This document shows, piece after piece, positions 28,741 through 61,658 of a stretch of 64,000 nucleotides of DNA (the stretch's first letter is position 1; every line of letters starts with the position of its first letter). Source of the stretch: Pseudooceanicola aestuarii (GTDB lineage Bacteria > Pseudomonadota > Alphaproteobacteria > Rhodobacterales > Rhodobacteraceae); contig NZ_JAAFZC010000005.1 of NCBI RefSeq assembly GCF_010614805.1, positions 55,269-119,268 on the forward strand, written 5' to 3'. The notes beneath the pieces were generated by a model, which was not told the DNA's origin, did no database searches, and saw only the letters and a program-made list of their open reading frames with translations. The translations under genes were made by a program, and so were the position numbers.

Positions 28741-28771
28741 TGTGTCCGTGCCTCCCGCGCTGGAAGGTCAA
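28741..28771 (-). promoter_or_regulatory. CueR-type promoter of the Rieske gene (site A)
   Basis: Minus strand: TTGACC, a 19-base spacer TTCCAGCGCGGGAGGCACG, then GACACA. The spacer holds a CCTTCC/GGAGG dyad typical of MerR-family copper regulators. The predicted start falls at the ATG, so the message may be leaderless. Confidence 0.65.
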
Positions 28772-28837
28772 CACGCGAGATGTAACGTTTTGTCAGCGCA
28801 CCTCTCTACGGATCATCAAACAGGCCTTGTCGGCGCA

Positions 28838-29362
28838 TTAATGGTGCGGGCCCGCGCCTTTTGCCATCATGAGGTGGTGCTCCTGGTGATGCGCCCCGAT
28901 GGTCATCAGACCAAAGAAACCAAGTCCCTGAATCTGCGCGGCATCGCCATCGACACTGAGCGCCACGCCATCTTCTAAGTCCTCTGTCACAACGTCCCAG
29001 CCGGTCTCGGCCGCGAGAAAGGGCGCATGGGCGGGCACCATGGCGCGGATGGCCTCGAGAACACGGGGGGTGCCCCGAATCTCGAACCGGGCCCCTTCCG
29101 GCCGCAGGGTGCGGGCGACCACGGCCTCTTGGGTCAGAAGGTCCATATCGACCAGATGGCGGCGCAATCCGTCAATATCGACCCGCTCCCAATCCGTCTC
29201 GGGATCGGCCTGCAGGATCGTTACGATTTCCGCCAAGGCGGCAAAGGCCGATTGCCCGGTTTCCTGCGGTCCGCCCATGTCGTGACCAGCCGCGGAATTG
29301 GCGTGCTGCGCGGCCACGGGTGCGGCCATCACTATGGCAAGGACGAAGGGAATGAGACGCAT
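28838..29362 (-). CDS. Secreted His/Met-rich hypothetical protein
   Basis: 174 residues from the ATG at 29362 (AAGGACC upstream). A signal peptide (RLIPFVLAIVMAAPVAAQ) is followed by HANSAAGHDMGG, and the C-terminus ends in a cluster GAHHQEHHLMMAKGAGPHH. The two His/Met-rich ends suggest periplasmic copper binding; the middle is a helical domain I do not recognise (WERVDIDGLRRHLVDMDLLTQ). It is divergent from the Crp/Fnr regulator and upstream of the Rieske gene on the same strand. Function inferred only from composition and neighbours. Confidence 0.7.
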   Translation of the reverse strand: MRLIPFVLAIVMAAPVAAQHANSAAGHDMGGPQETGQSAFAALAEIVTILQADPETDWERVDIDGLRRHLVDMDLLTQEAVVARTLRPEGARFEIRGTPRVLEAIRAMVPAHAPFLAAETGWDVVTEDLEDGVALSVDGDAAQIQGLGFFGLMTIGAHHQEHHLMMAKGAGPHH

Positions 29363-29421
29363 GGACAGGTCCTTCAATGGGGTGGTGTCATGTTTACGCT
29401 AGCAGGGGCGGATGCATCGTA

Positions 29422-29439
29422 ATATGATTTCAATCATAT
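29422..29439. promoter_or_regulatory. Palindrome over the regulator's start codon
   Basis: ATATGATT-TC-AATCATAT, 8-bp perfect arms; the right arm reaches the ATG at 29438. It resembles a relaxed Fnr/Dnr site and sits in the divergent gap, so it may control both flanking genes. Confidence 0.6.
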
Positions 29440-30004
29440 GTTGCCAAACCCCTATGATCATATCCCGAGCTCAGCCCTGCGCCCAATCTCCGGCGCGGTT
29501 GGAGATACCGTATTTCACCAAGGCGACCCCACCCACGGTCTCTATGTCGTGCAAACCGGGCGCGTGCATCTCGAGCGGGTCGATCCAGATGGCGAGCGGT
29601 TCATCATCCACCGTGCCCAAGCCGGAACAAGCTTTGCCGAAGCTTCGGTGTTTTCGGAGGTCTATCATTGCGACGCAGTCATTGTTGAGGCCGGGGCGCT
29701 GATCCGGATCGACAAGGCTTCCGTATTGGCCGCTTTTGCCGACCCGGCATTTGCCCGCGCCTATGGCCGTCAGGCGGCTCAACAGATACAGGCGCAGCGA
29801 CAGATGCTGGAGATCGTCGGCATTCGGCGCGCAGAGGACCGGGTGATGGCAGGGTTGATCGCAGGCTTGCTCGAAGGCTCCATCGTCGAGTTTGCCGCTC
29901 GGTTACAATTGAGCCATGAGGCGACCTACAGGGCGCTGCGAAAGCTTGTGCAAGACGGACGGGTCATGAACCCGTCCCGCGGGATCTATCACCTGCACCC
30001 ATGA
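29438..30004 (+). CDS. Crp/Fnr-family transcription regulator
   Basis: 188 residues, somewhat short for the family. The cyclic-nucleotide-binding-like beta roll is clear (GDTVFHQGDPTHGLYVVQTGRVHLERVDPDGERFIIHRAQAGTSFAEASVF), followed by the long dimer helix (FARAYGRQAAQQIQAQRQMLEIVG) and a C-terminal winged helix (VEFAARLQLSHEATYRALRKLVQDGRV). There is no N-terminal cysteine cluster, so it is not an oxygen sensor of the Fnr type. The start codon overlaps a palindrome (29422-29439), suggesting autoregulation. The ligand is unknown. Confidence 0.85.
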   Translation: MLPNPYDHIPSSALRPISGAVGDTVFHQGDPTHGLYVVQTGRVHLERVDPDGERFIIHRAQAGTSFAEASVFSEVYHCDAVIVEAGALIRIDKASVLAAFADPAFARAYGRQAAQQIQAQRQMLEIVGIRRAEDRVMAGLIAGLLEGSIVEFAARLQLSHEATYRALRKLVQDGRVMNPSRGIYHLHP

Positions 30005-30009
30005 CCTGA

Positions 30010-30462
30010 TCAGCTGTGGCTCGCGAAGACCGAGGTCGCGCCGTCGGAGCCAACAAGCAAGGTGTCAAAAGCGTCACCGGCCCCGGGACCGCCCATGCCG
30101 GGCGAACTCATCGGCATGCGGGGGACAGTCAAACCGCGCGCCATCGGTTGCTCTGCTAGCAGCCGCGTGATGTCCGCGGCAGGCACGTGGCCCTCGATAA
30201 AATAGTCGCCCACGACCGCCGTGTGACATCCAGCAAGTTCCGGTGCAATTTGCAGCCGATCTTTGAACGCATAAAGCGCATCCTGATCGACGTCCTGCGC
30301 CTCGACCGCGAAGCCCGCTTGCCGGACATGATCGACCCAAGCGGTGCAGCATCCGCAGGTGGGGGTTTTCAGGACTTTAATGACCGGTTCCGTGTTGGCC
30401 AGTGCTCGCAGGGGGAGTGTGGCAGCCGCTCCGGCCAGCAAGAACGTACGTCGTTTCATCAT
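30010..30462 (-). CDS. DUF411 periplasmic metal-binding protein
   Basis: 150 residues with a signal peptide (MMKRRTFLLAGAAATLPLRALA). The DUF411 core starts with IKVLKTPTCGCCTAWVDHVRQAG, a thioredoxin-like motif with CGCC, then LAGCHTAVVGDYFIEGHVPAADITRLL and GLTVPRMPMSSPGM. The last ~25 residues contain a methionine-rich MPMSSPGMGGPG. DUF411 proteins are associated with copper and other metal resistance and are thought to bind metal in the periplasm. The gene is last in a five-gene minus-strand operon driven from site B, and its 5' end overlaps the preceding gene by 86 bases. Ribosome site AAAGGAAC. Confidence 0.85.
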   Translation of the reverse strand: MMKRRTFLLAGAAATLPLRALANTEPVIKVLKTPTCGCCTAWVDHVRQAGFAVEAQDVDQDALYAFKDRLQIAPELAGCHTAVVGDYFIEGHVPAADITRLLAEQPMARGLTVPRMPMSSPGMGGPGAGDAFDTLLVGSDGATSVFASHS

Positions 30463-31372
30463 GTGTTCCTTTTTGAGTTACCCGAGACCCTAGAACTGTG
30501 TTTTCGAGAGTCCAGAGGCTGTTCCTGCTTGTCGGCGTGAGGGCGGATGTATCCAGGGCGTGTCCGCTTGCTGGCCCGCGAAGGGGCTGGATCAACATCC
30601 TGTCGACCCAGAGGTCGCGCGTCGTGCGAAACTGCTCGATACCGATCGTCATTCCCTCGTGGCCCTTCGCGGGCTGGGCTACGTAAGTACCCATGAGGCG
30701 GTCCCACCACGGCAGGTTGAAGCCGTAGTTTGAGTTGGTTTCGCGCGGATCGACAGAATGATGCACGCGGTGCATGTCGGGTGTGACGACGATCCATCTG
30801 AGCCACCGGTCGACCGGTCTCGGCAGGTTGATGTTGGCATGGTTGAAGAGGGCAGTGGCGTTGAGGATGATCTCGAACAACAAAACCGCGACGGCGGGCG
30901 GACCAAGCGCTGCCACCAGGGCGAGCTTGATCGCCATCGAGATGAGGATCTCAATCGGATGGAAGCGTAATCCAGTGGTTGCGTCGAAGTCGAGATCCGC
31001 ATGGTGCATCCGGTGCAGGCGCCACAGGGCCGGGACGGCGTGGAACATGACATGTTGCAGATAGATCGCCAGATCGAGCAGCAGCATGGACAGGATCACA
31101 GCCAACCCGAAAGGAGCCTCGATAATGTTGAACAGGCCCCAGCCCCGCTCCTCGGCCAGGACCGCCAGACCGACGGCCAGGATTGGGAAAGACAACCGGA
31201 GGATCGCCGTATCGATCACGACAAGTGCCAGGTTGTTCGACCAACGGATGACACGCGGAATGTCACGCCGCCGACGCGGGGCGGCGAGTTCCCAAAGCGC
31301 CATGGCGGCCAGCACACTCAAAAACGCCGTCAGACGAATCTCCGGCTCTGCGGCTAGTATTATGTCCATCAC
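30377..31372 (-). CDS. Sterol desaturase/fatty acid hydroxylase family membrane protein
   Basis: 331 residues with four or more membrane segments and the di-iron histidine clusters of this superfamily: HVMFH, LHRMHHADLDF, a later HANIN and DMHRVHHS. Members hydroxylate or desaturate lipids; the substrate here is unknown but a membrane-lipid change is likely. The gene overlaps DUF411 by 86 bases: the final ~30 residues (VTQKGTHDETTYVLAGRSG) are read from the DUF411 signal-peptide region in another frame and look non-conserved, suggesting loss of an earlier stop. It is the fourth gene of the site-B operon. Confidence 0.82.
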   Translation of the reverse strand: MMDIILAAEPEIRLTAFLSVLAAMALWELAAPRRRRDIPRVIRWSNNLALVVIDTAILRLSFPILAVGLAVLAEERGWGLFNIIEAPFGLAVILSMLLLDLAIYLQHVMFHAVPALWRLHRMHHADLDFDATTGLRFHPIEILISMAIKLALVAALGPPAVAVLLFEIILNATALFNHANINLPRPVDRWLRWIVVTPDMHRVHHSVDPRETNSNYGFNLPWWDRLMGTYVAQPAKGHEGMTIGIEQFRTTRDLWVDRMLIQPLRGPASGHALDTSALTPTSRNSLWTLENTVLGSRVTQKGTHDETTYVLAGRSGCHTPPASTGQHGTGH

Positions 31373-31375
31373 AGT

Positions 31376-32362
31376 CTACGGCCCTTCTGTGTTAGGGCTT
31401 GGGTGCGGATGCGCATCTCGCACATCAGTCTTTTCTTGCGCAGCCTTTGCAGCCGCTATCTGGACTATATCAAGATCCCGCGCGTGGCGCTCGTCGAGAC
31501 ACTCTGTTTCGAGCTGCAGCGTGACCATGTGAAACCCATGCTGTTCCGTCAGCCGCCGATAGGCCCTGTTCAGCAAATCCGCGGCCTCGGCGGGTGACTG
31601 ATGGCGGATATGGGCGGAAAACGCGTGTTTGCCGCTGGTCAGCGTCCAGGCATGCACATGGTGAACGTCCAGAACCCCGTCCTGGCCGCGCAGGTCCGCC
31701 GTCACAGCCTCGAGATCCGTTCCCTCTGGCGTGCCTTCCATGAGGATGTGGACCGCTTCCTTGATGACGCCGACGGAGGCCCAGAGGAGAACCACCCCGA
31801 ACGCCATGCCGAGGATCGGGTCAATCGCCAGAAAGCCGGTGAACTCGATCACTAGAGCGGTGACGATGATCAGGAGGCTGCCGACAAAGGTCTGGATGAT
31901 GTGCCAGAGCGCACCACGGGCATTCAGATCGTCCTTGCTCGATTGCCACATCAGCCCCAGCGAGATCACTTCGGTGACCAGGCCTCCGAAGGCGACCCAG
32001 AGCATGGGACCCGTGGCCAGGTGAATCGGATTCCCGAGCCGCATCGCGCCCATCCAGATCACCAGAAGCGCCATACCGAGAAGAAAGCCGCCATTCACCA
32101 GTGCCCCGATGATCTCGGCGCGGTACCAGCCGAAACTCCGCGCCGAATCCGCCGGGCGGCGCGCAATGCGCTGCGCGATGATGGCCACCAGAACGCCGCC
32201 AACCGCCGACAGGGTGTGAAACGCATCCGACAGGACGGCAATCGAGCCAGTCCAGAGCCCGACGGCCAGTTCAATCACGAAGTAGACGCCGGTGAGCCAG
32301 GCCGAAATCACAAGGGCCTTGCCGGAACTCGGCATATGCCCGGCGTGGGAATGACTGGCCAT
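31376..32362 (-). CDS. Cation diffusion facilitator (CDF) transporter
   Basis: 328 residues from the ATG at 32362, which has AAGGAGAG at ideal distance; a longer upstream frame is rejected. It has six membrane helices with the CDF metal-site pattern SDAFHTL in helix 2 and NARGALWHIIQTF in helix 5. The N-terminus (MASHSHAGHM) and a loop are histidine-containing, and a C-terminal cytoplasmic domain (VLDVHHVHAWTLTSGKHAFSAHI) binds metal. CDF proteins export Zn, Co, Cd or similar divalent ions by proton antiport; copper is not a usual substrate. Middle gene of the site-B operon. Confidence 0.9.
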   Translation of the reverse strand: MASHSHAGHMPSSGKALVISAWLTGVYFVIELAVGLWTGSIAVLSDAFHTLSAVGGVLVAIIAQRIARRPADSARSFGWYRAEIIGALVNGGFLLGMALLVIWMGAMRLGNPIHLATGPMLWVAFGGLVTEVISLGLMWQSSKDDLNARGALWHIIQTFVGSLLIIVTALVIEFTGFLAIDPILGMAFGVVLLWASVGVIKEAVHILMEGTPEGTDLEAVTADLRGQDGVLDVHHVHAWTLTSGKHAFSAHIRHQSPAEAADLLNRAYRRLTEQHGFHMVTLQLETECLDERHARDLDIVQIAAAKAAQEKTDVRDAHPHPSPNTEGP

Positions 32363-32363
32363 A

Positions 32364-33026
32364 TCAGCTCTCCTTCCGTTTCGTACCGGTCTTTCGCGTC
32401 GCGGCGAAGAGAACCGACAGGCCGGTAAAGCCACCCAGCGCAAGTGCGGTCCATGTGGCAGTGCGGGCATCGCCGTTCATCGCCTGGCTGCCCATGTGAG
32501 CGAGCAAGAAACTCGCTGGAATAATCCCGGCCATCGTGGCCAGCGCGAACCTCCAAAGATGCAGCTTGCTCAGACCTGCGGCGTAACTGATCATATCGAA
32601 GGACAGAAACGGCAGCAGGCGACTGCCGAAGACCAGGAAGGTCAGAGTGTTCTGGGACCCGAACAGGCCTGCGTTAATCTTCTGACCGAGATGACGCTCA
32701 ACGAAGGGACGACCCAAGCCGCGGGCCAGACCAAAGGCGGCAAGCGCACCGAGTTCCGCACCTAGAACGACGAAGAGCGTCCCGTACGTGTGTCCATAAG
32801 CCGCTCCGGCGGCGAGTGCGATTGGCGCCGAGGGCAGGGGGCTTGCGACAATAGCGATTGTCATGAGCGCCACGATGACAATTGGTCCGGCAAGACCTGC
32901 CGCCTCGATCCAGCGGTCAATTTCCGCGCGATCAGGCAGGCGAATGTCAACGCCAAGGACGTCCGAGAAGGCCAATGCGACGACTCCCATCAGGAACACC
33001 GCAATAAGAAGGATGCGCATCATCAT
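32364..33026 (-). CDS. TVP38/TMEM64 (VTT-domain) membrane protein
   Basis: 220 residues with five to six hydrophobic segments and the VTT-domain signature: SPLPSAPIALAAGAAYGHTYGTLFVVLGAELGALAAFGLARGLGR and FGSRLLPFLSFDMISYAAGLSKL. Homologues (DedA/TVP38 type) move phospholipids or small ions across membranes; some are linked to metal tolerance. It starts three bases after the upstream gene and ends just before the CDF start, consistent with one operon. Confidence 0.85.
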   Translation of the reverse strand: MMMRILLIAVFLMGVVALAFSDVLGVDIRLPDRAEIDRWIEAAGLAGPIVIVALMTIAIVASPLPSAPIALAAGAAYGHTYGTLFVVLGAELGALAAFGLARGLGRPFVERHLGQKINAGLFGSQNTLTFLVFGSRLLPFLSFDMISYAAGLSKLHLWRFALATMAGIIPASFLLAHMGSQAMNGDARTATWTALALGGFTGLSVLFAATRKTGTKRKES

Positions 33027-33029
33027 GGA

Positions 33030-33479
33030 TCAAAACACGGCATAGAGCAGAACGAAGAACGTCGCTGCCAAAAGGTCAAAGGCCACGCAGAATGGAATAT
33101 ACCAGTTCGGAATCCGGGCGAGACGATAAGAATTGTGGTGTGACATGTCCCAAAGGGCGTGCAGGGCCAAGCCCAAGGGAAGGAAAGCCCAATGCCATAT
33201 CAGCCCCAAAAAGGCTGCCGAGCCGAACAAAAGGGCGACGGCGAGCTCTGCCCAGAACACGCGCGCTCTGCCGTCCGCGGCGCCAAAGCCGATATAGGCA
33301 CCGCCAATCAAAGCAAGCGTGATCGAAGCAAGAGCTATCGAGCTCTTTTCATCCAAAAACAGGTGAGCCGGCATTGTGAGCAAGACAAACAACACACCAA
33401 CCCATACGGGAGATTTCAAGATATCCCCGTGTCGATGGTGCGATACGTGATCGCCTGTCTTTTCGAAACTCTGTGCCAT
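33030..33479 (-). CDS. Hypothetical membrane protein, first gene of the site-B operon
   Basis: 149 residues with about four hydrophobic segments. The N-terminus is charged and histidine-rich (EKTGDHVSHHRHGDI), and the C-terminal half has HALWDMSHHNSYRLARIPNWYIPFCVAFD. The WDxSHH motif followed by a P.WY.PFC.xxD segment is seen in small bacterial membrane proteins of unknown function. The CueR-type promoter (33487-33517) predicts a transcription start within one or two bases of the ATG. It leads VTT, CDF, sterol-desaturase and DUF411 genes. Confidence 0.75.
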   Translation of the reverse strand: MAQSFEKTGDHVSHHRHGDILKSPVWVGVLFVLLTMPAHLFLDEKSSIALASITLALIGGAYIGFGAADGRARVFWAELAVALLFGSAAFLGLIWHWAFLPLGLALHALWDMSHHNSYRLARIPNWYIPFCVAFDLLAATFFVLLYAVF

Positions 33480-33486
33480 GGCTTTG

Positions 33487-33517
33487 TACCTAGGGATTCC
33501 AGCAACTGGAAGGTCAA
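33487..33517 (-). promoter_or_regulatory. CueR-type promoter of the membrane/CDF/DUF411 operon (site B)
   Basis: Minus strand: TTGACC, a 19-base spacer TTCCAGTTGCTGGAATCCC, then TAGGTA. The spacer carries a near-perfect TTCCAG/CTGGAA dyad. The predicted +1 is at the ATG at 33479, so a leaderless message is likely. Confidence 0.75.
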
Positions 33518-34828: not shown

Positions 34829-35551
34829 ATGGGACCGCAACCTCATATCCTTATCGTGGACGACCACGCTCAGATACGCGAAAGCGTCGCGCGCTTCCTG
34901 GAGAAGAACGGAATGCGCACGACCGTCGCCAGGGATGCCGTGGAGATGGATGCCAAGCTGGCCACCGGTCACTTCGACCTCCTCGTGCTCGATGTCATGA
35001 TGCCGGGCGAGGACGGTTTGTCGGTTTGCCGCAGACTTGCGCCAGAGGGTGATCTTCCGATCATCATGCTGACGGCGCTTGGTGAGGAAACGGATCGGAT
35101 CGTGGGGCTGGAAATCGGTGCGGACGATTATCTCGCCAAGCCGTTCAATCCACGAGAACTGCTCGCCCGCATCAAGTCGGTTCTTCGGCGAAGCAACCGT
35201 GACGAACCCGTGGCCGGAAGGCTCGCGGGGAGGAAAGTCTCTTTTGCGCACTGGATACTGGATACCGACCGGCAGGTGCTGATTGACGAGTCCACCACCG
35301 AGACGCCATTGACGACCTCCGAGTTCAAATTGCTGGCGGTCCTGCTGGAACGTGCGAGGATGGTGCTCAGCCGTGACCAGTTGCTTGACCTGACCGCTGG
35401 TCGGACGGCAGGCCCGATGGATCGCACCATCGACAATCAGATCAGCCGCCTCCGCCGCAAAATCGAGCCGGATGTACTTAGGCCCAGTGTCATCAAAACG
35501 GTGCGGAACGGCGGATACTGTCTGGCTGCCGATGTCGAGGATGCGCCGTGA
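34829..35551 (+). CDS. OmpR-family response regulator, probable copper sensor (CopR-like)
   Basis: 240 residues. The receiver domain has acidic pocket D11/D12, phosphorylation site D55 (LLVLDVMMPG), T82 and K104 (LAKPF). The C-terminal winged helix ends in MDRTIDNQISRLRRKIEPD...IKTVRNGGYCLAADV. It overlaps the histidine kinase gene by four bases. Two TACA-N6-TACA boxes lie in the divergent region upstream and match boxes elsewhere in the island, so this regulator is the best candidate for recognising them. The inducing signal is inferred to be periplasmic copper. Confidence 0.9.
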   Translation: MGPQPHILIVDDHAQIRESVARFLEKNGMRTTVARDAVEMDAKLATGHFDLLVLDVMMPGEDGLSVCRRLAPEGDLPIIMLTALGEETDRIVGLEIGADDYLAKPFNPRELLARIKSVLRRSNRDEPVAGRLAGRKVSFAHWILDTDRQVLIDESTTETPLTTSEFKLLAVLLERARMVLSRDQLLDLTAGRTAGPMDRTIDNQISRLRRKIEPDVLRPSVIKTVRNGGYCLAADVEDAP

Positions 35552-39324: not shown

Positions 39325-39332
39325 GAGAGAAG

Positions 39333-41545: not shown

Positions 41546-43675
41546 TCACTCCTGTCCGGCAACCTTTGCGGAAATATCCCGACCCCTGGCTTGCGCCAAG
41601 GCGTTCATCACGTCCTCGGTCGTCAGCAATTCGGACAGCACAATGCCGTTTGGTGCCGACGGTCCATAGACGGCATTGAAGGGGATGCCATATCTGCCGA
41701 AACTCTCAAGGTAACGGGAAATGCGCGCGTCCGGGCGTGTCCAATCTGCCTGCATCGGCGTGACGCCCGGCGTGTCCAGCGCACTGCGGACCGGATCACG
41801 GTCGATGACAAGTGTCTTGTTCGCTTTGCACGTCAGGCACCAGTCAGCGGTCACATCGACAAAGACGACCTCTCCTGCGGACACGCGTTTCGCTATGTCC
41901 GAACGATCAAATGCGATCCAAGCCAATGCCGATTGCGACTCTGAACGGGCCGGCGCTGATTGCTGCAGGACAGGACCTGCGGCAAGAGCCAGGACAAGGC
42001 TGGCTGTGGCAATAGACCACCTGAATTGGGACTGCACATTCGGGAGGGACAAGATCAGAACGGCGAGACCGGACAACGCCGCGACCGCGATGACAGACGC
42101 AAGCCCGGCGACACCGTCGAGCACCCAGAACAGCCACACGGCGGTTGCAAGCAACAAAACCCCCATGACGCTTTTGATGATCAGCATCCATCGACCAGGC
42201 TTGGGCATGAATGCGACCAGACGCGGGAACGCGGCGATGACGAGATAGGGCAGGGCGAGGCCGAGCCCGAGGCTCGTAAAGACGATGAGGATGTCCACGC
42301 CACGCCCGGCCAAAGCAAAGGCCACCGCGGTGCCGAGGAACGGTGCCGAACAAGGCGTCGCCATGACGGCACCGAACATGCCAGTGAAAAAGTCGGCGGA
42401 ATACCCGTTGCGTCCTCCGGCCCCTGCAAGCCGCGTCTGCATGCCGTGTGGAAGGGCGAACTCGAACGCTCCGAACAGATTTGCCGAAAAGACGAGCAGG
42501 ACAGCGATCATCGCCGCAAGAAACAGCGGGCTTTGAAACTGCAAACCCCACCCGACGCTGAGGCCTGCCGTCTGGAGCGCCCAGAGGACGAGCGCCAGAC
42601 CCCACATGAACGTCATGATGCCGGCGCTGGCAGCGACGAAACCGAACCGGACACGGGTTGTGTCGTGATCGGTGTGTTTGAGCACAGACGACACCTTGAT
42701 GGACAGCACCGGCAGCACGCAGGGCATCACATTCAGGATCAATCCGCCCAGCAGCGCGATCGCGGCAATCCAGATCAGTTCCATCATGTCCGGTGTCGTG
42801 GCGGCCAGTTCAAAGGGTGGTGCTATTCCTTGCGCCACGCGATCCGCGATGATCGTGAAGGCCCGGTTCTCGCCGTCGGTGACGGTAATCGACGGAGCCA
42901 CTGTCACATCCGTATTCGACGAGAGGATCGGCAAGCGCGCCCAAAGCAAACGATCCTCTTCTCCCAAACGGATATCGGGTTTGCCAAGCGCAACACCCAT
43001 ACCCAGTTCGGGAAACACATCCGGCGACTGGAGTGGTTCATCGACGCGAAGGCTGACGATCAACTCCGTGAGGTCTTCGTCGATGAAGGCATTTGCCTCG
43101 CTGACGCCGCTCGTCTTGGCCCCTTCGGGGACGCGCTCGGAAAACGTACCGATCAGCCCAGCCGAAGTGCTGTCGATGACGTTGCCCCGTCCGAGGCGAA
43201 GTGACAGGTCAAACTCTTCCGGGACACAGACATTGGAGCACACCAGCAGTTTGACCTGCGCGGAAAGAGTCACAGGTGCGCCGGGATCTTTGAGCGTTAT
43301 GCGCAGCGGAAAGACGACGTCACCCGCATAACCAAAATTTTCGATGCCGAAGGCGGTGAAGCGCGTCGGGGCGGGCCACATGAATTCGACATCTGCGACG
43401 TTTTCGGAACCGCTCCATTCGACCGAAGGCGGTATTCCCACCTCGCCCGCCGACCGCCAATAGGTCTTCCAGTTTTCGTTCAGTTGAAGATGAAGCCCGG
43501 CTGACAGAGTCCGTGTGTTCTCGGGAACGCCGTCCTGTACACTGATGAGATACGCGGTAAGTGGCGCACTTTGGTATTCAGCAGAGGTTGCTGCCGAGAC
43601 ACTTCCAGAGACAAGGGCCAAGAGCACGAAGGGAATAAGCAAAACCCGTCGCAGGATCAAAAGGCAATCGATCAA
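41546..43675 (-). CDS. DsbD/ScsB-family protein-disulfide reductase
   Basis: 709 residues starting at a TTG at 43675 (GGAAG ribosome site). A signal peptide leads into a large N-terminal periplasmic domain with VCSNVCVPEE cysteines, an eight-helix transporter domain with the paired cysteines in LILNVMPCVLPVLSIKV and ATPCSAPFLGTA, and a C-terminal thioredoxin domain with ADWCLTC (C613/C616). The large N-terminus matches the ScsB (suppressor of copper sensitivity) class more than classical DsbD. It passes cytoplasmic electrons to periplasmic thiol proteins such as ScsC and CcmG. Third gene of the operon behind site E. Confidence 0.87.
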   Translation of the reverse strand: MIDCLLILRRVLLIPFVLLALVSGSVSAATSAEYQSAPLTAYLISVQDGVPENTRTLSAGLHLQLNENWKTYWRSAGEVGIPPSVEWSGSENVADVEFMWPAPTRFTAFGIENFGYAGDVVFPLRITLKDPGAPVTLSAQVKLLVCSNVCVPEEFDLSLRLGRGNVIDSTSAGLIGTFSERVPEGAKTSGVSEANAFIDEDLTELIVSLRVDEPLQSPDVFPELGMGVALGKPDIRLGEEDRLLWARLPILSSNTDVTVAPSITVTDGENRAFTIIADRVAQGIAPPFELAATTPDMMELIWIAAIALLGGLILNVMPCVLPVLSIKVSSVLKHTDHDTTRVRFGFVAASAGIMTFMWGLALVLWALQTAGLSVGWGLQFQSPLFLAAMIAVLLVFSANLFGAFEFALPHGMQTRLAGAGGRNGYSADFFTGMFGAVMATPCSAPFLGTAVAFALAGRGVDILIVFTSLGLGLALPYLVIAAFPRLVAFMPKPGRWMLIIKSVMGVLLLATAVWLFWVLDGVAGLASVIAVAALSGLAVLILSLPNVQSQFRWSIATASLVLALAAGPVLQQSAPARSESQSALAWIAFDRSDIAKRVSAGEVVFVDVTADWCLTCKANKTLVIDRDPVRSALDTPGVTPMQADWTRPDARISRYLESFGRYGIPFNAVYGPSAPNGIVLSELLTTEDVMNALAQARGRDISAKVAGQE

Positions 43676-43732
43676 GATACCTGCTTCCTTCCCATATTTT
43701 CCGCAGATTTCGCCAGGACGGCGGAAATTGCG

Positions 43733-43957
43733 TCAAAGTCCACCTGTGGCAAAACCCTGACGACCGTCCGCACAGACAATTCGCGCAACGCCAGTCGCAG
43801 AAGATGAAAGGGTTCGACACCCATCCGGCAGAAGGTCTGACGCTTGCTTCGTGGACACGATAGCGCCGCGATCCGAGCAGTCTTCAAGACTTCCTGCACA
43901 TCCCCCAAGCATGAAACCCGACAACAGCAACGCGCCTACGCGTACCTTCCCGCGCAC
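43733..43957 (-). CDS. Small lipoprotein
   Basis: 74 residues from a GTG at 43957, two bases after the DUF2933 stop. A signal peptide with lipobox LGG-C (FMLGGCAGSLED) is followed by a cysteine-containing mature part (LPDGCRTL, RIVCADG). Two further cysteines may bind a thiol or metal. An alternative frame over the same span lacks a plausible start. It sits between DUF2933 and ScsB; function unknown. Confidence 0.5.
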   Translation of the reverse strand: MRGKVRVGALLLSGFMLGGCAGSLEDCSDRGAIVSTKQASDLLPDGCRTLSSSATGVARIVCADGRQGFATGGL

Positions 43958-43958
43958 A

Positions 43959-44261
43959 TCACGGCCTGTCGCGGACCACGACTGGAATCGCGGAGGTTAT
44001 GGGCTCGGTCGTTTCCTCGATAGTATCCTTTGCCTTGTCGGAATGGCACGATTTTCCCATGAATTTGTGCATCACGAGATGCGCCCCCACGCACAGCAGG
44101 AGCGGGGCAAAAGCCGCTGCATTGCCCCACATGCCCGCCAATGTGCCGCCGGCAAGAAAAAATCCCGCAATGGGCAGCAGCATGACGACGCAACACGCCA
44201 TCATTCCGTAATGCATGAGCCTGTCCGTGATCGGCTTTTTTCTGTGGTTCCGGTGGTCCAT
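43959..44261 (-). CDS. DUF2933-type small membrane protein
   Basis: 100 residues with two membrane helices (CCVVMLLPIAGFFLAGGTLAGMW and AAFAPLLLCVGAHLVMHKFMG), a histidine-rich charged N-terminus (MDHRNHRKKPI) and the LCVGAHLVMHKFMGKSCHS end typical of DUF2933 proteins. These occur in copper and mercury resistance clusters. It begins the operon behind site E and is followed by the lipoprotein and ScsB. Confidence 0.75.
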   Translation of the reverse strand: MDHRNHRKKPITDRLMHYGMMACCVVMLLPIAGFFLAGGTLAGMWGNAAAFAPLLLCVGAHLVMHKFMGKSCHSDKAKDTIEETTEPITSAIPVVVRDRP

Positions 44262-44289: not shown

Positions 44290-44320
44290 CATTTGCGGCC
44301 CTCCAGCAGGGTAAGGTCAA
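44290..44320 (-). promoter_or_regulatory. CueR-type promoter of the DUF2933-lipoprotein-ScsB operon (site E)
   Basis: Minus strand: TTGACC, 19-base spacer TTACCCTGCTGGAGGGCCG, CAAATG. The dyad is imperfect (ACCCT.GCTGGAGGG), weaker than at sites B and D. Confidence 0.6.
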
Positions 44321-50022: not shown

Positions 50023-50223
50023 TCAAGCGGCCGCAGGTTCCACGTTGTAGCCCGCATCCCGAATGATCGCTTGGACCTGATCGGCTGGTAACACGCTGTC
50101 GACATGCACCTGTCGGGCAGAAAGGTCACATTCTACGCCTGCATTCGGATCTGCGCTCTTCACCGCGCTTTCGATTGCTGCGGTGCAATGCCCACAGCTC
50201 ATGTCCAGAACGCTGAACTTCAT
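50023..50223 (-). CDS. copZ: Copper chaperone CopZ-like HMA protein
   Basis: 66 residues from the ATG at 50223 (AAGGAG). The heavy-metal-associated motif MSCGHCTAAIESAVKSADPNAGVECDL carries the GMxCxxC-type metal site (C12/C15-equivalent), followed by VQAIIRDAGYNVE. It hands Cu(I) to the copper ATPase. CueR-type promoter (site C) upstream. Confidence 0.9.
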   Translation of the reverse strand: MKFSVLDMSCGHCTAAIESAVKSADPNAGVECDLSARQVHVDSVLPADQVQAIIRDAGYNVEPAAA

Positions 50224-50255
50224 CGGAACCACTCCTTGATCTGATTTCTATCGGT

Positions 50256-50286
50256 GACATGGGGCTTCCCCCCGCTGGAAGGTCAA
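50256..50286 (-). promoter_or_regulatory. CueR-type promoter of copZ (site C)
   Basis: Minus strand: TTGACC, 19-base spacer TTCCAGCGGGGGGAAGCCC, CATGTC. The CTTCC/GGAAG dyad is clear and the start of copZ lies 26 bases beyond the predicted +1. Confidence 0.75.
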
Positions 50287-50314: not shown

Positions 50315-50345
50315 TTGACCCTCCAGTAACTGGAAGCCTCATATT
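50315..50345 (+). promoter_or_regulatory. CueR-type promoter of copA (site D)
   Basis: TTGACC, 19-base spacer CTCCAGTAACTGGAAGCCT, CATATT. The dyad CTCCAGTAACTGGAAG is the best preserved of the set. It supports the copA start at 50376 rather than 50355. Confidence 0.85.
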
Positions 50346-50375
50346 CCACTTCGAATGGAAAAACAGGTGACACAT

Positions 50376-52886
50376 ATGCCCGAACCCAAACAGATCAGCC
50401 TGCCGATCGAAGGCATGTCATGCGCGTCCTGCGTTGGCAGGGTCGATCGCGCATTGAATGCAATCGACGGCGTAGAGGATGTGTCGGTGAACCTTGCCTC
50501 GGAAACTGCTCGCATGAGCGTGGACGCGCTCAAGCGCATTCCCGACATCATCGAATCCCTTCGCGAGCTGGGCTACCCCGCGCGGAAGGCCAGGGCCGAA
50601 CTCACGATTGCAGCGATGTCCTGTGCCTCTTGCGTCGGGCGGGTCGATAAGGCGCTTGCCGCGGTGCCCGGGGTGGTCGAGGTGAACGTCAACCTCGCCT
50701 CAGAGACGGCGACGGTCGTTTACGTCGAAGGTCTTGTCACGACATCCGATCTGATCGAATCAAGCGGCGCGGCAGGGTATCCAGCAACCGTGGCAACGGC
50801 CCAGGCCGGTGACGACAGAGTTGCGCGCAAGGAGGAAGAGGCTCAGGCGCTTGCCAAACGGGTCACCTTTGCGGCCATCCTCGCCTTGCCGGTCTTCCTG
50901 ATCGAAATGGGTGGCCACGTCATTCCGGCCGTTCATATGCTGATCGAGACCACGATTGGCCAGCAGACGAGTTGGCTTCTTCAGTTCGTGCTGACGACAA
51001 TCGTTCTCTTCGGCCCGGGCCGGACGTTTTATACCAAGGGTTTCCCGGCCTTGTTCCGGGGTGCCCCCGACATGAACAGCCTCGTCGCGGTCGGCACCGG
51101 GGCGGCTTACCTTTATTCCGTGGTTGCGACATTCGTACCGTCGGTCCTGCCTGACACGCTGCGCACCGTCTATTTCGAGGCGGCAGCGGTCATCGTCGTT
51201 CTGATCCTTCTGGGGCGGTTTCTTGAAGCGCGCGCCAAGGGGAGAACGGGCGCGGCCATCCAGAAGCTATTAGGGCTTCAGGCGCGGACTGCACGCGTGA
51301 TGCGGGACGGAGAAAGCGTCGAGATCGAGATCGATGCGCTGGTTCAGGGTGACATCGTCATCGTGCGCCCTGGTGAACGCATCGCGGTCGATGGCGAGGT
51401 CATCGAGGGGACCAGCCGCGTCGACGAAAGCATGCTGACAGGCGAGCCGATCCCCGCTGAAAAAGGTGCCGGAGATACGGTGACCGGCGGGACGGTCAAC
51501 GGCGCCGGAAGCCTGCAGTTCCTCGCCACGCGGGTCGGCGCCGACACGACCCTGGCGCAGATTATTCGCATGGTCGAAGAGGCCCAGGGCGCCAAACTGC
51601 CGATCCAGGGATTGGTCGACCGGATCACCTTGTGGTTCGTGCCTGCCGTGATGGCGATCGCGGCGGCGACCGTGCTGGTCTGGCTGTTTTTCGGGCCTGA
51701 TCCGGCCCTGACGATGGCGCTGGTCGCCGGTGTGTCGGTGCTCATCATCGCGTGCCCCTGCGCGATGGGGCTTGCGACGCCGACCTCGATCATGGTCGGG
51801 ACGGGACGTGCTGCGGAAATGGGTGTCCTGTTCCGTAAAGGTGACGCCTTGCAGCAACTTGATTCCGTTGATGTGGTCGCCCTCGACAAGACAGGCACGG
51901 TGACCGAGGGGCGACCCGCACTGACTGACCTTGTGCTGGCGGAAGGGTTCGATCGCCCAACAACGCTCTCGAAGATCGCTGCCGTGGAGTCGCTCTCCGA
52001 GCATCCTGTCGCGGACGCCATCGTCCGCGCCGCCCGGGCCGAGGGCGCACCTCTTGTGGCGGCCGAAGGCTTTCAATCGGTCACAGGTTACGGCGTGCGC
52101 GCCGTGGTCGAAGACGTGGAGGTGTTGGTTGGGGCCGACCGCTACATGGCGCGCGAAGGCATTGACGTCTCGGCATTGGCTCCAGAGGAAACGAAGATCG
52201 CAAGCAAGGGTCGCACGGCGCTTTACGCTGCCATAGATGGGCGTGTCGCCGCCGTGATCGGCGTGGCCGATCCGGTCAAACCGGCAAGCCGCGCAGCCAT
52301 CGCAGCGCTGCACGAAAAGGGTCTTGCGGTTGCGATGATCACCGGCGACAAACGCGAAACCGCCGAAGCCATCGCCCGCGAAACCGGTATCGACCACGTC
52401 ATCGCCGGCGTCCTGCCGGACGGCAAGGTTGCGGCGCTCGACAGTTTGCGCCAAGGGAACAAGCGCATCGCCTTTGTCGGCGACGGGATCAACGACGCCC
52501 CGGCGCTGGCGCATGCCGATGTGGGCATCGCCATTGGAACCGGCACCGATGTGGCCATCGAATCTGCGGATGTCGTCCTGATGTCGGGCGATTTGCGCGG
52601 CGTGGTGAACGCCTTCGAAGTATCGCGGCGGACCATGCGCAACATCCGGCAGAACCTGTTCTGGGCCTTTGCCTACAACGTGGCACTTATTCCGGTCGCT
52701 GCCGGGGTGCTCTATCCGGCCTTTGGGTTGCTCCTGTCACCAATCCTTGCGGCGGGTGCGATGGCGTTGTCCTCGGTGTTTGTCCTGACCAATGCCCTGC
52801 GGCTGCGGCGCATCGCGCCTGCGATGGACGAGCAGCGCGCAATCCCGGCAGAGATGGCAGCCGCCACTCCTGCTCCAGCAGAATAA
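50376..52886 (+). CDS. copA: Copper-exporting P1B ATPase CopA
   Basis: 836 residues from the ATG at 50376 with AGGTGA; the ATG at 50355 would leave no leader behind site D. Two N-terminal HMA domains each have MSCASC (C16/C19, C83/C86). Eight membrane helices carry the CPC motif (C460-C462) and later ATPase landmarks: TGEP, D504 in DKTGT, the nucleotide domain SEHPVADAI and GDGIND. It is the main copper exporter, followed 12 bases later by cueR. Confidence 0.95.
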
Positions 52887-52898: not shown

Positions 52899-53297
52899 AT
52901 GAACATCGGAGACGTTGCCCGACAATCGGGTGTGCCCGCCAAGACGATCCGCTACTACGAGGACATCGGTCTGATCCGCCCGAACCGTAGCGAGAACGGC
53001 TATCGCGCGTTCACCGAGAACCACGTTCACAAGCTGGCGTTTCTGGGTCGCGCACGGGCCTTGGGGTTCACCATCGAAGATTGCAGGACGCTCCTGTCGC
53101 TCTACGAGGATGAAAACCGCGAAAGCATGCAAGTGAAGGCGGTTGCGGAAGACCATCTGCGCCAGATCGAGGAAAAGATCGCGAAACTGCAATCCATGCG
53201 CGCGACGCTCGCCGAACTGGTGGAAAAATGTGCCGGGGATCACCGGCCCGACTGCCCCATCATCGAGGATCTGTCGCCGGAGCGGTTGGCCAAGTGA
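52899..53297 (+). CDS. cueR: Copper-responsive MerR-family regulator CueR
   Basis: 132 residues: the winged-helix N-terminus (MNIGDVARQSGVPAKTIRYYEDIGLIRPNR), a dimer helix and the metal loop with C111 and C119 (CAGDHRPDC), the CueR Cu(I)-binding pair. It activates promoters with long 19-bp spacers, seven of which are found in this island, including one before copA. It is transcribed with copA. Confidence 0.93.
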   Translation: MNIGDVARQSGVPAKTIRYYEDIGLIRPNRSENGYRAFTENHVHKLAFLGRARALGFTIEDCRTLLSLYEDENRESMQVKAVAEDHLRQIEEKIAKLQSMRATLAELVEKCAGDHRPDCPIIEDLSPERLAK

Positions 53298-53318: not shown

Positions 53319-54083
53319 TCAGAACCAGATCGCGCGGACCGGCATCCAGATACCCATGAAGATCATCATCAGGTTTTCCGTCAGCGAAATGAACCCCAGC
53401 GGGACGGAACTGTCACCGCCGACGCAGGCGCATTTCAGCTCTCTCTTGTCGATATAAACAGCCTTGAACACGCTGACAGCGCCGACCGTGCCGATAAACA
53501 GGGCGACAGGCGCCGAGAGCCACAGCAGCGCGCCGGCAGTCATCAGGACACCTGCCAACGCTTCGCCGACCGGGTAGACCTTGCCGTATCGCACCCATTT
53601 GCGCGCCAGCAGATCGTAGTTGAGGAACATCGTCGAAAACCCTTCGACATCCTGCAATTTCTGGATCGCGAGAATGGTCATGGACAGCGAAATGAACCAT
53701 TCGAACCCCCGCAAGGTAAGGACCGACCCGTACTGGTGCCAAGACAGGCCCAATGCCAACAGCGCGGCAACGGAAAAGATCGCGATGACCGGCTGGTAGG
53801 TCGTGTCGCTTTGCTCTTCCTCGGGTGGGTCAATGTCGAAAAACACCCTGAGATCATCGTAACCGCCGATCCGTTCGTCCCCGATGAAAGTCTGCGGCGT
53901 CGTCTCGACCCCGTGCTTCTCCATGAAAGCATCGGTGTCTTCACGGGTGTCAAGCGGATGGTCTTCCACCTCGAAGCCTTGCCGCTCCAGCAGGTCTTTC
54001 GATTTCAGACCGTAGGGGCAGACATGGCCCGGCATGACCATGCGATAAAGCTGCGCGGATTTACTGTCTGTGTCGCGGGGCAT
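53319..54083 (-). CDS. Glutaredoxin-MauE/DoxX fusion
   Basis: 254 residues. Residues 10-80 are a glutaredoxin domain (MVMPGHVCPYGLKSKDLLERQG with CPYG, and GVETTPQTFIGDERIGGYDDL). Residues 95-250 have four to five membrane helices typical of MauE/DoxX redox-membrane proteins (VIAIFSVAALLALGL, WFISLSMTILAIQKLQDVEGFSTMFLNYDLLARKWVRYGKVYPVGEALAGVLM). A CACVGGD motif near residue 225 has two cysteines. I infer membrane thiol redox work. Second gene of the site-F operon. Confidence 0.82.
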   Translation of the reverse strand: MPRDTDSKSAQLYRMVMPGHVCPYGLKSKDLLERQGFEVEDHPLDTREDTDAFMEKHGVETTPQTFIGDERIGGYDDLRVFFDIDPPEEEQSDTTYQPVIAIFSVAALLALGLSWHQYGSVLTLRGFEWFISLSMTILAIQKLQDVEGFSTMFLNYDLLARKWVRYGKVYPVGEALAGVLMTAGALLWLSAPVALFIGTVGAVSVFKAVYIDKRELKCACVGGDSSVPLGFISLTENLMMIFMGIWMPVRAIWF

Positions 54084-54095
54084 GTCCTTTCCTCC

Positions 54096-54932
54096 TTATC
54101 CGCTGCACGTAAGTTGACCACGGAACCCGGCTTCGTAGTCGGTTCCCGCGCTGACGATCAGATCGGTCAGGTCACCGTTCGTCTCTGCGATCTCGGCCGA
54201 CAGCGGGCCTTCAGAAAATGCATTTTCGCCCTGCGCATTCAGGCGCACCAGATCACCGCTGATCTTCATTGCGGCTGCAGACCCTTCGCCGGTTTCACCA
54301 GTCACCAGTACAGCCGGACTGTCCGAGGTGTAAGCAAAGCGGCAATTTCCGCCATTCGGGAACACCGCAGCGATTTCGTCTTCCGTCAGAAACTCAGGAT
54401 CGACCTTCGACACGACCTCCGTTTGAAGCGCCTGTTGCGCATCCACAACCTGCGCCGGCGTTTCGCTTCGCGTGGCCGATGCTTCGCCGTTTGCTCCAAT
54501 GTCAGCAATAAGGTAGCGCATTTCGGCGATTTCCTTGTCCTGCGCATAGATAATGTCGTCTGCGAGCCCCCGGACGCGCGGGTCGGTGATCTCGGCACGA
54601 GTCGACGTCATGATGGCGATCGAGTGGTGCGGGATCATGGCGCGCATGTAGGACCTGTCCTGCACCGTGAATTGCCCGCGAACCAGCCAGAGGCTCGCCG
54701 CGAAAAGGACTATTGCGCCAACGAAAATCGCGATGTTGGCTTTGGTGTTCTGATACATGGACAACATGTACGCCAACATGATCACGGCCATGGTCGCCCC
54801 CATCAGGATGGCCATGTAAAGGCGTGTCTCCGAAAAGAAGATATGGCCCCAAAGATAGGTGTTCAGGTACATCAGAACGAACATGACCACGGTCGATGTT
54901 CCGATCATCATAAAGAATCGTGAGTAGTGCAT
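54096..54932 (-). CDS. DUF305 membrane protein with extra C-terminal domain
   Basis: 278 residues, ATG at 54932 behind AAGGAGGTGA. Three membrane helices occupy the first ~100 residues, and DUF305 hallmarks appear at FTVQDRSYMRAMIPHHSIAIMTSTRA (HHSIAIM) with DIIYAQDKEIAEMRYLI. The remaining ~130 residues are a separate periplasmic beta-rich domain (VFPNGGNCRFAYTSDSPAVLVTGE... GQLTCSG). DUF305 proteins are frequent in copper-responsive clusters. Confidence 0.82.
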   Translation of the reverse strand: MHYSRFFMMIGTSTVVMFVLMYLNTYLWGHIFFSETRLYMAILMGATMAVIMLAYMLSMYQNTKANIAIFVGAIVLFAASLWLVRGQFTVQDRSYMRAMIPHHSIAIMTSTRAEITDPRVRGLADDIIYAQDKEIAEMRYLIADIGANGEASATRSETPAQVVDAQQALQTEVVSKVDPEFLTEDEIAAVFPNGGNCRFAYTSDSPAVLVTGETGEGSAAAMKISGDLVRLNAQGENAFSEGPLSAEIAETNGDLTDLIVSAGTDYEAGFRGQLTCSG

Positions 54933-54963: not shown

Positions 54964-54994
54964 ACAACAACATTCCAGCGCTGGAGAGTTCCAA
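54964..54994 (-). promoter_or_regulatory. CueR-type promoter of the DUF305-glutaredoxin operon (site F)
   Basis: Minus strand: TTGGAA, 19-base spacer CTCTCCAGCGCTGGAATGT, TGTTGT. The dyad TCCAGCGCTGGA is perfect; the -35 hexamer differs from TTGACC. Confidence 0.65.
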
Positions 54995-57707: not shown

Positions 57708-57749
57708 ATCGTCCCGCATTCATCGAAAACAAACAAAGGGCTTCGCTTC

Positions 57750-58415: not shown

Positions 58416-58491
58416 CCTATTGCATCTTTGGCTCACACGCCGAGGACTGCGTCGTGCAGGGACATCTTCCAATGAATTGTTGGACGAACAC

Positions 58492-59319: not shown

Positions 59320-59333
59320 TGTCGCAATTTGTA
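59320..59333 (-). promoter_or_regulatory. Weak TACA-type direct repeat
   Basis: Minus strand TACAAATTGCGACA: one TACA and one GACA half-site 10 bases apart. Close to the island boxes but degenerate; faces the lipoprotein gene. Confidence 0.35.
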
Positions 59334-59446
59334 ACAGACCCCGCCTTTGTGACCTCGCGATACAAAACACCGGCTCGCGTGGCATTCCGCATCTGCAGGT
59401 GCCCCCCATATGCTGGGTATCGCAACACTGACACGAGGTGATCGAA

Positions 59447-60055: not shown

Positions 60056-60061
60056 GCCAAT

Positions 60062-60087
60062 GGGTGCCGGTTTTTTTTCCGGCACCC
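60062..60087 (+). terminator. Terminator-like hairpin after the EF-hand gene
   Basis: GGGTGCCGG and CCGGCACCC arms around eight T. No T-tract follows the stem, so efficiency is uncertain. Confidence 0.55.
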
Positions 60088-60196
60088 GTCCTCACAACCC
60101 CAAAACCATTCGCGGTCGGGACATTGAACCGAACCGCGACCTGAACCGTTTAGCCTCGGTATGCCAACAAATAGAGACACGGAAAGGAAAATTCCC

Positions 60197-60583
60197 ATGG
60201 CCTATACCTATGATCGCGTCCTGAAAGACACCAAAATCGATGACGCAGAGATGCGTGTTCGGGATGCTTTGGCAGACAAGGGCTTCGGCGTGCTGACTGA
60301 GATTGACGTCAAAGCGACGATGAAAAAGAAACTTGATGCGGACATGCCGCCTTACCGCATCTTGGGGGCCTGTAATCCGGGCATGGCGCACAAAGCCATC
60401 GAGATCGAGCCTCGCATCGGTGCGATGCTTCCCTGCAATGTTATCCTGCGGCAACTGGACGGCGACACCGAGGTCAGCGCGGTCGATCCTGTCGCTTCGA
60501 TGCAGGCGGTGCAGAACCAAGACCTGGACGCGGTCGCCGGCGAAGTCCGCGATCTCCTTCGGGACGCCCTCGACACCGCGTGA
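60197..60583 (+). CDS. DUF302 protein
   Basis: 128 residues from ATG 60197 (GGAAAGG). DUF302 motifs: LTEIDVKATMKKKLDADMPPYRILGACNPGMAHKAIEIEPRIGAMLPCNVILRQ. No signal peptide is visible. Two cysteines (GACNPG, LPCNVI) could bind a metal ion. DUF302 proteins are often found with copper and sulfur stress genes; activity unknown. Confidence 0.85.
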   Translation: MAYTYDRVLKDTKIDDAEMRVRDALADKGFGVLTEIDVKATMKKKLDADMPPYRILGACNPGMAHKAIEIEPRIGAMLPCNVILRQLDGDTEVSAVDPVASMQAVQNQDLDAVAGEVRDLLRDALDTA

Positions 60584-60614
60584 TGGCGGGATGGGCGTTG
60601 GATGCCCTGTCGCA

Positions 60615-60642
60615 GATCGAGCGCCTTTAGCGGTGCTCGATC
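60615..60642 (+). terminator. Terminator of the DUF302 gene
   Basis: GATCGAGC and GCTCGATC arms with a short inner stem, 30 bases past the DUF302 stop. Confidence 0.55.
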
Positions 60643-60688
60643 AATGCCATCTAATCCCCACGTAAATTCCTGATGAGGAACTCACCCA

Positions 60689-61609
60689 GTGCTGCCAGCG
60701 GGATTGCCATTTCCGGATATTGGAACCGACCTCTTCTCCTTCGACATCGGGGGGGTCACATTCGCACTCCGCTGGTACGCGCTAGCCTATATCTTCGGTA
60801 TCCTGATTGGCTGGCGCATTTGTTCGAGTGCCATAAGCCGTCCCGCGCTCTGGACGTCAGCTGGACCGCCGCTTGACCGAACGCAGATCGAAGATCTTCT
60901 GACGTGGATCATCATCGGCGTGATTGCTGGTGGTCGCCTGGGCTTTGTACTGTTCTACCAGCCCGCATATTATCTCGCCAATCCCTTGGAAATTCTGATG
61001 GTCTGGCAAGGCGGCATGTCTTTCCACGGGGGGTTCGCGGGAGTTGTCATCGCGGCCTTGCTGTTCTGCCTTAGACAGAACGCGTCATTGCTCAGCACTG
61101 GCGACTTGCTGGCTTTGGCAACACCACCAGGCTTGTTTCTTGGAAGGCTGGCGAACTTCACCAACAATGAGTTGTGGGGGCGGCCGACGGACGTTCCCTG
61201 GGCGGTGATCTTTCCCGGCGAAGTCGCGCAGGCCTGCCCAGGGGTTAGCGGCCTCTGCGCCCGACACCCGTCCCAGCTGTACGAGGCGGTATTGGAGGGG
61301 CTCATTCTTGGAATACTGCTCATTTATCTCGCTTGGGGCCGGGGCTGGCTGAAAATGCCCGGTGCCTTGGCTGGCGTGTTTCTGACCGGCTATGGTCTTG
61401 CCCGAAATTTCGTCGAGATGTTCCGGCAACCGGACCAGCAGTTCGTGACGGAAGATAACCCAATTGGCCATGCGCTCCACTTTGGTGAGTGGGGTTTGAC
61501 CATGGGCCAGTTGCTCTCCATGCCAATGGTGCTGGTCGGGCTGGCGTTGATCGTGTTCGCCCGGCGGGAACGGGGCCGGACAGCGCCACCCCGCAGAGCC
61601 GCAATGTAA
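60689..61609 (+). CDS. lgt: Prolipoprotein diacylglyceryl transferase Lgt
   Basis: 306 residues from a GTG at 60689 (GAGGAA upstream). Seven membrane helices and the Lgt signature [12 protein letters not shown] with conserved [29 protein letters not shown] and [13 protein letters not shown]. Lgt attaches diacylglycerol to the lipobox cysteine of prolipoproteins. It is normally chromosomal and essential; the island copy may serve lipoproteins under copper stress. Confidence 0.9.
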
Positions 61610-61627
61610 TCGCCGTACTGATCTCTC

Positions 61628-61658
61628 TTGACCCTCCTGTGGATGGAAGCCCCAAGCA
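61628..61658 (+). promoter_or_regulatory. CueR-type promoter of the second copper ATPase (site G)
   Basis: TTGACC, 19-base spacer CTCCTGTGGATGGAAGCCC, CAAGCA. The dyad is weaker (CTCC/GGAAG) but -35 and spacing match the others. Confidence 0.6.

Follow-up and report, generated by a model that had tools for sequence, protein, structure and literature searches.

Does the CueR protein encoded in a copper-related region of Pseudooceanicola aestuarii act on a regulon much broader than the classical one and, if so, do its promoters follow a single design? The question is raised by the 64 kb at the right-hand end of contig C5 (119,268 bp; NZ_JAAFZC010000005.1, positions 55,269 to 119,268) in a genome of 4.2 Mb and seven contigs, the whole of this 64,000-nucleotide stretch being referred to here as the window. 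There, an earlier note had described seven matching CueR-type promoters, each with a TTGACC-like -35 box, a 19-bp spacer and a -10-like hexamer. All seven 31-bp sites are indeed present where they had been placed. They do not, however, match one another, with four carrying an odd dyad with a gap of seven bases (N7), two a shortened dyad and one a different pair of -35 and -10 boxes. Judged from sequence, they probably represent a plasmid-borne CueR regulon with its operator set in three promoter designs. In what follows, labels beginning with L, G and C denote loci, genomes and contigs.

The sites at 33487, 50256, 50315 and 61628 follow the pattern TTGACCYTCC-N7-GGAA(G/T), with an odd dyad (33496-33517 and 50265-50286 on the minus strand, 50315-50336 and 61628-61649 on the plus strand) and a 19-bp spacer. 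At each, a 21-bp odd palindrome is centred 7 bp from the -35 box, which is not the case at 28741 and 44290, where the palindrome is shorter, or at 54964. The first of these predicted CueR-type promoters (33487..33517, minus strand) precedes a minus-strand operon (30010..33479; Pfam) encoding a DUF6010 protein (33030-33479), a VTT-domain protein (32364-33026), a cation diffusion facilitator (CDF) efflux protein (31376-32470), a fatty-acid hydroxylase (30377-31372) and a DUF411 protein (30010-30462). The predicted promoters of copZ (50256..50286, minus strand) and copA (50315..50345, plus strand) lie before genes assigned to an HMA-domain copper chaperone (50023..50232, minus strand; Pfam HMA) and a Cu(I) P-type ATPase (50355..52886, plus strand; Pfam, with TIGR01511 over cut-off), respectively. 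The fourth (61628..61658, plus strand) precedes a second Cu-ATPase gene (61688..64000, plus strand; Pfam, with TIGR01511 over cut-off), which encodes two HMBD domains and is cut by the contig end.

Among relatives, these sites are conserved in part. The DUF6010 gene was matched in 9 of 147 genomes, its own included, five copies elsewhere being 95–99% identical. When four diverged relatives were compared, the site before this gene was kept in L049 and L050 (65 and 53% identity) and missing in L051 and L052 (41 and 36% identity). In the family of the second Cu-ATPase, a site of at least 14 bits was found at 20 of 30 loci, that of the window included, the other 10 being without. In the genus and family (90 genomes), the N7 pattern with at most one mismatch was matched 168 times, as compared to 33 times for a reversed control.

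In leave-one-out matrix scans of the window, the four N7 sites and the site at 28741 ranked among the six best positions with either 22 or 31 columns, with that at 44290 doing so with the 31-column matrix only. By contrast, the site at 54964 scored -10.3 and was outscored by 5393 window positions, such that the notion of seven matching sites was rejected. What stands is that six sites begin with TTGACC, allow a 19-bp spacer and look like CueR-type promoters, with CueR being encoded inside the cluster, whereas the site at 54964 resembles an EcfG-sigma promoter; the -10-like hexamers are present but loose. No site of at least 14/15 arose in 30 simulated 64-kb windows, whereas the real window holds five (33517, 50286, 50315, 61628 and 28771). 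Because a score of 13/15, that of the site at 44290, comes up by chance in simulated windows at a rate of about 0.5 each (15 in 30, gaps of six and seven taken together), the case for that site rests on relatives. In a comparison with shuffled sequence, TTGACCYTCC-N7-GGAAG with at most three mismatches was matched nine times in the window against 3.13 expected, a count reached by one of 100 shuffles. The dyad alone was not significant in the window, where it was matched five times with 2.43 expected (11 of 100 shuffles did as well), and was rejected as evidence. Over the complete genome, the N7 pattern with at most one mismatch has four matches, namely, three of the window sites and C2:568656, which precedes the copA gene of a second CueR module. 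With at most three mismatches, 26 matches are found, as opposed to 13 for the reversed pattern, and many of the weaker matches must therefore be noise. Upstream stretches of 300 bp were also searched for 20 genes of the window, ccmF and genes for YkuD, a multicopper oxidase and cytochromes among them, and showed no further site above 12/15.

The candidate regulator, cueR (52899..53297, plus strand), is predicted to encode a Cu(I)-responsive MerR-family activator, since the protein passes TIGR02044 (NCBIfam; whole-protein score 169.3 bits, cut-off 147.4) and matches CueR 1q05 (phmmer, E 2.1e-31). Its metal-loop Cys-x7-Cys (CAGDHRPDC) and a serine are both aligned to CueR 1q05; we take Ser at that position to mark Cu(I) sensors and Cys there to mark sensors of divalent metals. 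The window itself is a plasmid region common to marine roseobacters. Plasmids with similar DNA are those of Actibacterium (99.2% over 20.2 kb), Sagittula (97.7%), Phaeobacter, Leisingera and others, and 25 database records span at least 80% of the query in one place. Contig C2 encodes another CueR, together with its own copA; over 127 residues, it shares 76% identity with the plasmid protein. Two MerR-type regulators of the same genome (G000:C5:20204 and G000:C6:56129) resemble, by eye, divalent-metal (CadR/PbrR-like) sensors.

The sites at 28741 and 44290 share TTGACCTT(C/A)C, followed after six bases by GGAGG, and keep the 19-bp spacer. An N6 dyad fits best at 44290 (13/15, as compared to 12/15 for N5), and N6 and N5 (GGGAG) fit equally at 28741 (14/15 each). 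The predicted CueR-type promoter at 44290..44320 (minus strand) precedes a minus-strand DUF2933–ScsB operon (41546..44261; Pfam, translation) comprising a DUF2933 protein gene (43959-44261), a small open reading frame (ORF; 43672-43908) and a gene for a ScsB/DsbD-like protein (41546-43675), the name ScsB coming from the earlier note. Among ScsB relatives of 51–61% identity, TTGACCTTCC and a short dyad precede the operon in four, the dyad being clearly N6 in L092 and L096 and N6 or N5 in L089 and L090. Diverged versions of the site are found in L091 and L093–L095, no site is found in L097–L099, and the more distant L100–L113 are without a match of at least 14.

The predicted CueR-type promoter at 28741..28771 (minus strand) lies before a gene encoding a Rieske [2Fe-2S] protein with a twin-arginine translocation (TAT) signal (28174..28734, minus strand; Pfam UCR_Fe-S_N and Rieske). 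As six bases separate the putative -10 box (GACACA) from the Rieske ATG at 28734, either the transcript is leaderless or the start codon lies elsewhere. Of 30 Rieske loci, only L054 (that of the window), L055 (99% identical) and L056 have a site of 14, the last, with an 85% identical Rieske protein, showing a similar arrangement and a clear N6. The stand-alone, copper-linked gene of the window is a second Rieske gene, another one, 67% identical, being present on contig C1, and two near-identical copies in G056 (G056:C2:163932 and G056:C4:100511) match over the first 49 residues only. The window protein might act as a spare when copper stress affects the cell.

In the 90 genus and family genomes, the N6 pattern with at most one mismatch was matched 117 times, as compared to 82 times for the reversed control. 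More informative is its exact form, with 18 matches at 17 positions in the 147 genomes, 16 in the genus and family and the remaining one, a palindrome, among the other 57. The first gene behind these 17 positions is copZ in seven cases (L235, L236, L240, L242, L245, L246 and L249; assigned by Pfam HMA in four, by BLAST in one and from a CxxC motif by eye in two), YkuD in two, DUF2933–ScsB in two and ccmF, cytochrome c, an unassigned ORF between cueR and copA2, EamA and SBP/DUF2470 in one each, the last position facing a contig end. At L250 (G117:C43), outside the family, an exact and fully palindromic N6 lies on both strands between genes for a peptide-binding protein and DUF2470. In nine of 40 fetched stretches (L240, L245, L252, L256, L257, L259, L260, L263 and L270), the copZ site is N6 and that of the divergent copA is N7, whereas in the window both are N7; a second batch of N6 stretches, chosen partly for copper context, was left out of the target counts. 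The copA site of G071 (L249), labelled N6 by script, has an odd palindrome by eye and was not used.

The spacer of 18 bp expected from a shorter dyad was ruled out by a -10 register test. When the -10 boxes of 55 thinned N7 sites were made into a matrix and this was applied to 55 thinned N6 sites, from which those fitting both gaps had been set aside and of which many are probably chance matches, scores were best at a 19-bp spacer (mean -0.56, as compared to -4.79 at 18 and -4.91 at 20), with 26 of the 55 peaking there. The dyad is thus shorter, with the over-long spacer being kept. In relatives, short-dyad sites also precede genes for YkuD (L,D-transpeptidase), ccmF and small ORFs (L234, L241, L243, L244, L255, L258, L261, L262 and L272), the small-ORF gene at L258 being followed by a multicopper oxidase gene; no such site was found at the window counterparts (44418, 37324 and 47374).

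The site at 54964 is without TTGACC, and the TTGGAA found there is not a -35 box of the CueR-type class. Instead, the stretch described earlier as 54964-54994 holds a composite (54966..54992, minus strand) of GGAAC-N18-TGTT around the dyad TCC-AGCGCT-GGA. It precedes a minus-strand DUF305–glutaredoxin operon (53319..54932; Pfam) encoding a DUF305/CopM-like protein (54096-54932; Pfam; NCBIfam CopM 41.1 bits, below the cut-off of 90) and a glutaredoxin–MauE fusion (53319-54083; Pfam). Promoters of EcfG, the general-stress sigma factor, are given as GGAAC-N16-CGTT, with TGTT a used variant (PMC7083833). At 54964, the GGAAC and TGTT boxes are present, and they are conserved in part of the relatives; rather than the 16-17 bp of EcfG promoters, the spacer is 18 bp, with that of dyad-free relatives being 16 or 17. 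EcfG and PhyR are both encoded in the genome (PF22029/PF22233; NF006623 PhyR and the sigma factor NF009198 over cut-off). The best PDB match of the sigma factor is 5uxx, which we take to be an EcfG, and GGAAC-N17-CGTT adjoins phyR on both strands.

In many DUF305 relatives (48–67% identity), the upstream regions align on GGAAC-N18-(T/C)GTT with TCC-N6/N7-GGA between, and not on TTGACC. A scan of GTDB genomes with GGAACNNTCCANCGCNGGANNNTYGTT matched 115 stretches, about one being expected by chance by our own arithmetic. According to two slightly different BLAST procedures, 102 of these precede DUF305, five precede a glutaredoxin–MauE gene and eight are without assignment, three of the latter (L328, L379 and L382) having the plasmid's YkuD1 gene on the other side. 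Many are near-copies, the DUF305 upstream regions numbering 48 when only distinct ones are counted. By the 80 of 115 titles listed, most belong to what are presumably Rhodobacteraceae and roseobacters, with Hoeflea, Martelella, Ahrensia and a few metagenome-assembled genomes filed elsewhere also appearing. The scan pattern fixes both the dyad and the N18 spacer, and its matches were not used in considering spacer length. Rather, the comparison drew on 50 upstream regions retrieved by way of the DUF305 protein, 43 of them distinct, revealing an N6 or N7 dyad in 17 of 18 regions with GGAAC-N18-YGTT and in none of six with GGAAC-N16/17-YGTT (9 of 10 and 0 of 5 once collapsed to clusters; Fisher p 0.002). 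In shuffled upstream regions, GGAAC-N16/17-CGTT arises 0.07 times per 50. At L352, the composite lies between the DUF305 gene and a divergent cueR, and a DUF305 relative at L140 (67% identity) is without it, having TTCACCTTCC-N7-GGAAC upstream, oriented away from DUF305.

In activation by MerR proteins, a 19-bp spacer is untwisted and made shorter by about two bases (PMC9909328, PMC5045206), and the role of these activators is put as one of correcting sigma70 spacers that are too long (PMC9909328). Given the sites, their partial conservation, the genes behind them and the presence of CueR, EcfG and PhyR genes, a common mechanism may be proposed. Cu(I)-bound CueR would untwist the over-long spacer, such that sigma touches both boxes. 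In the classical design (TTGACC, N7 dyad, 19-bp spacer), this would serve copA, copZ, the second Cu-ATPase gene and the DUF6010 operon; in the short-dyad design (same -35, -10 and spacer, even N6 dyad), to which CueR would also bind, the Rieske gene and DUF2933–ScsB operon. In both, sigma would be the housekeeping factor. In the third, extracytoplasmic function (ECF) design, the same dyad, again presumed to be bound by CueR, lies between GGAAC and (T/C)GTT with an 18-bp spacer before the DUF305–glutaredoxin operon, and EcfG would be the sigma factor using GGAAC-N18-YGTT. There, the operator is as far from the -35 box as in the CueR promoters, to about one base by manual count, and the spacer exceeds the EcfG preference by one to two bases, leading us to infer an EcfG promoter activated through CueR-type distortion. 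Such an operon would need both copper and general stress. That CueR controls an EcfG promoter by MerR-type distortion, the operon needing Cu(I)-CueR as well as EcfG, and that one operator serves two sigma classes, a one-base-shorter dyad being tolerated in the housekeeping class, is put forward tentatively, as an idea with a real if somewhat less than even chance.

Of the other explanations, the strongest, if still unlikely, is that CueR owns the classical and short-dyad sites only, the composite being a plain EcfG promoter with an inner palindrome meant for another factor. The absence of TTGACC, the ability of GGAAC…YGTT alone to account for EcfG control and the existence of dyad-free N16/17 versions of the DUF305 promoter all agree with this. 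Yet the half-site of the composite dyad is that of CueR (AACCTTCCAGCGCTGGAAGGTT in some relatives), and its gap switches between N6 and N7 as in CueR operators. This dyad adjoins cueR in L352 and is one operon away from it in the window, and spacer length changes with the presence of the dyad. Less probable still is a reader of N6 sites other than CueR, namely, another MerR paralogue. In its favour are the differing symmetry of N6 and N7, the four CueR-related regulators of at least 36% identity encoded in this genome and the two CueRs of several relatives. The paralogues at C5:20204 and C6:56129 were thought unlikely readers of N6, as both resemble divalent-metal sensors, with a Cys, by eye, about where CueR has Ser, the rule being that assumed above; moreover, in the genomes G027 and G026, where a single CueR passes the cut-off, the copZ site is N6 and the copA site N7 within a single divergon. 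The contig C2 CueR, with its 76% identity to the plasmid protein and its own copA promoter, is given the same low probability as driver of some or all of these promoters, considering that the plasmid region has its own CueR adjoining the operators and is common to plasmids of several genera. Least probable is that chance accounts for the sites at 28741 and 44290 or that they are what decay has left. The 13/15 score of the latter and the GACACA hexamer of the former speak for this; the recurrence of the short dyad before DUF2933–ScsB in L089, L090, L092 and L096 and before Rieske in L056, and the 19-bp register of N6 sites, speak against it.

Several observations weigh against a CueR regulon in three designs. 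Of the diverged relatives listed, one keeps the Rieske site, whose -10 box is poor. In bulk, N6 is weak, at 1.4 times the control with at most one mismatch, and at 28741, L089 and L090 N5 scores as well as N6. CueR sites in the literature take the form of odd palindromes of 21 bp (PMC5045206), and a separate protein may tell N6 from N7 apart. As for the composite, L122 combines N18 with a decayed dyad and L443 combines N16 with TCC-N8-GGA, 18 of the 43 distinct DUF305 upstream regions are without GGAAC-N14..20-YGTT, with one having only N15, and GGAAC-N18-YGTT has three occurrences in the window, one of them being the site itself.

Elsewhere in the copper region, a cytochrome c maturation run, ccmF–redoxin–ccmH–TPR, occupies 37324-41517 and is adjoined by a two-component system (34829-37017). 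A CueR homologue of Rhodobacter sphaeroides, presumably a relative of the window's host, is also reportedly in control of copper genes (RSP_2889; Peuser, 2011, cited in PMC10141476 and PMC8456105).

The HmrR signal is given as ACCTTCCAG-(3)-CTGGAAGG with a 19-bp spacer (PMC1526738). Four window sites match such CueR/HmrR regulon promoters, whereas two have a shorter palindrome, and the window targets differ from that regulon in including the Rieske gene and the DUF2933–ScsB and DUF6010–CDF–hydroxylase–DUF411 operons. For this cluster, a regulon much broader than the classical one, as had been suggested, thus holds as a prediction; non-classical CueR targets as such have been proposed before, namely, cytochromes and glutathione S-transferases beyond copA/copZ/cueO (PMC1526738) and a type VI secretion system (PMC6907878). 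The composite shares the GGAAC and CGTT/TGTT boxes of PhyR–NepR–EcfG promoters, with EcfG and PhyR being encoded, but differs from them in its spacer of 18 rather than 16 (17 at phyR here) and in the CueR-type dyad inside (PMC7083833). The DUF305 domain is shared with copper-binding CopM/DUF305 proteins, from which the window protein is set apart by a hydrophobic N-terminus (by eye), a glutaredoxin–MauE partner gene and its CopM score below cut-off (PMC4335983). Among the matches listed in a collection with few subscription papers, neither the short dyad nor the ECF composite was found in work on HmrR, on wider CueR regulons or on a connection of MerR or CueR to ECF sigma factors or EcfG.

If MerR-type distortion does act on an ECF promoter, the mechanism would follow from spacer geometry in general, and general stress could gate a metal signal at a single promoter. 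A CueR motif search based on a 21-bp motif discarded sites with another distance from centre to -35 (PMC5045206), a filter that would remove N6 sites. As such, if the short-dyad class is real, searches demanding the 21-bp odd palindrome would miss true CueR targets, which in this family would include copZ.

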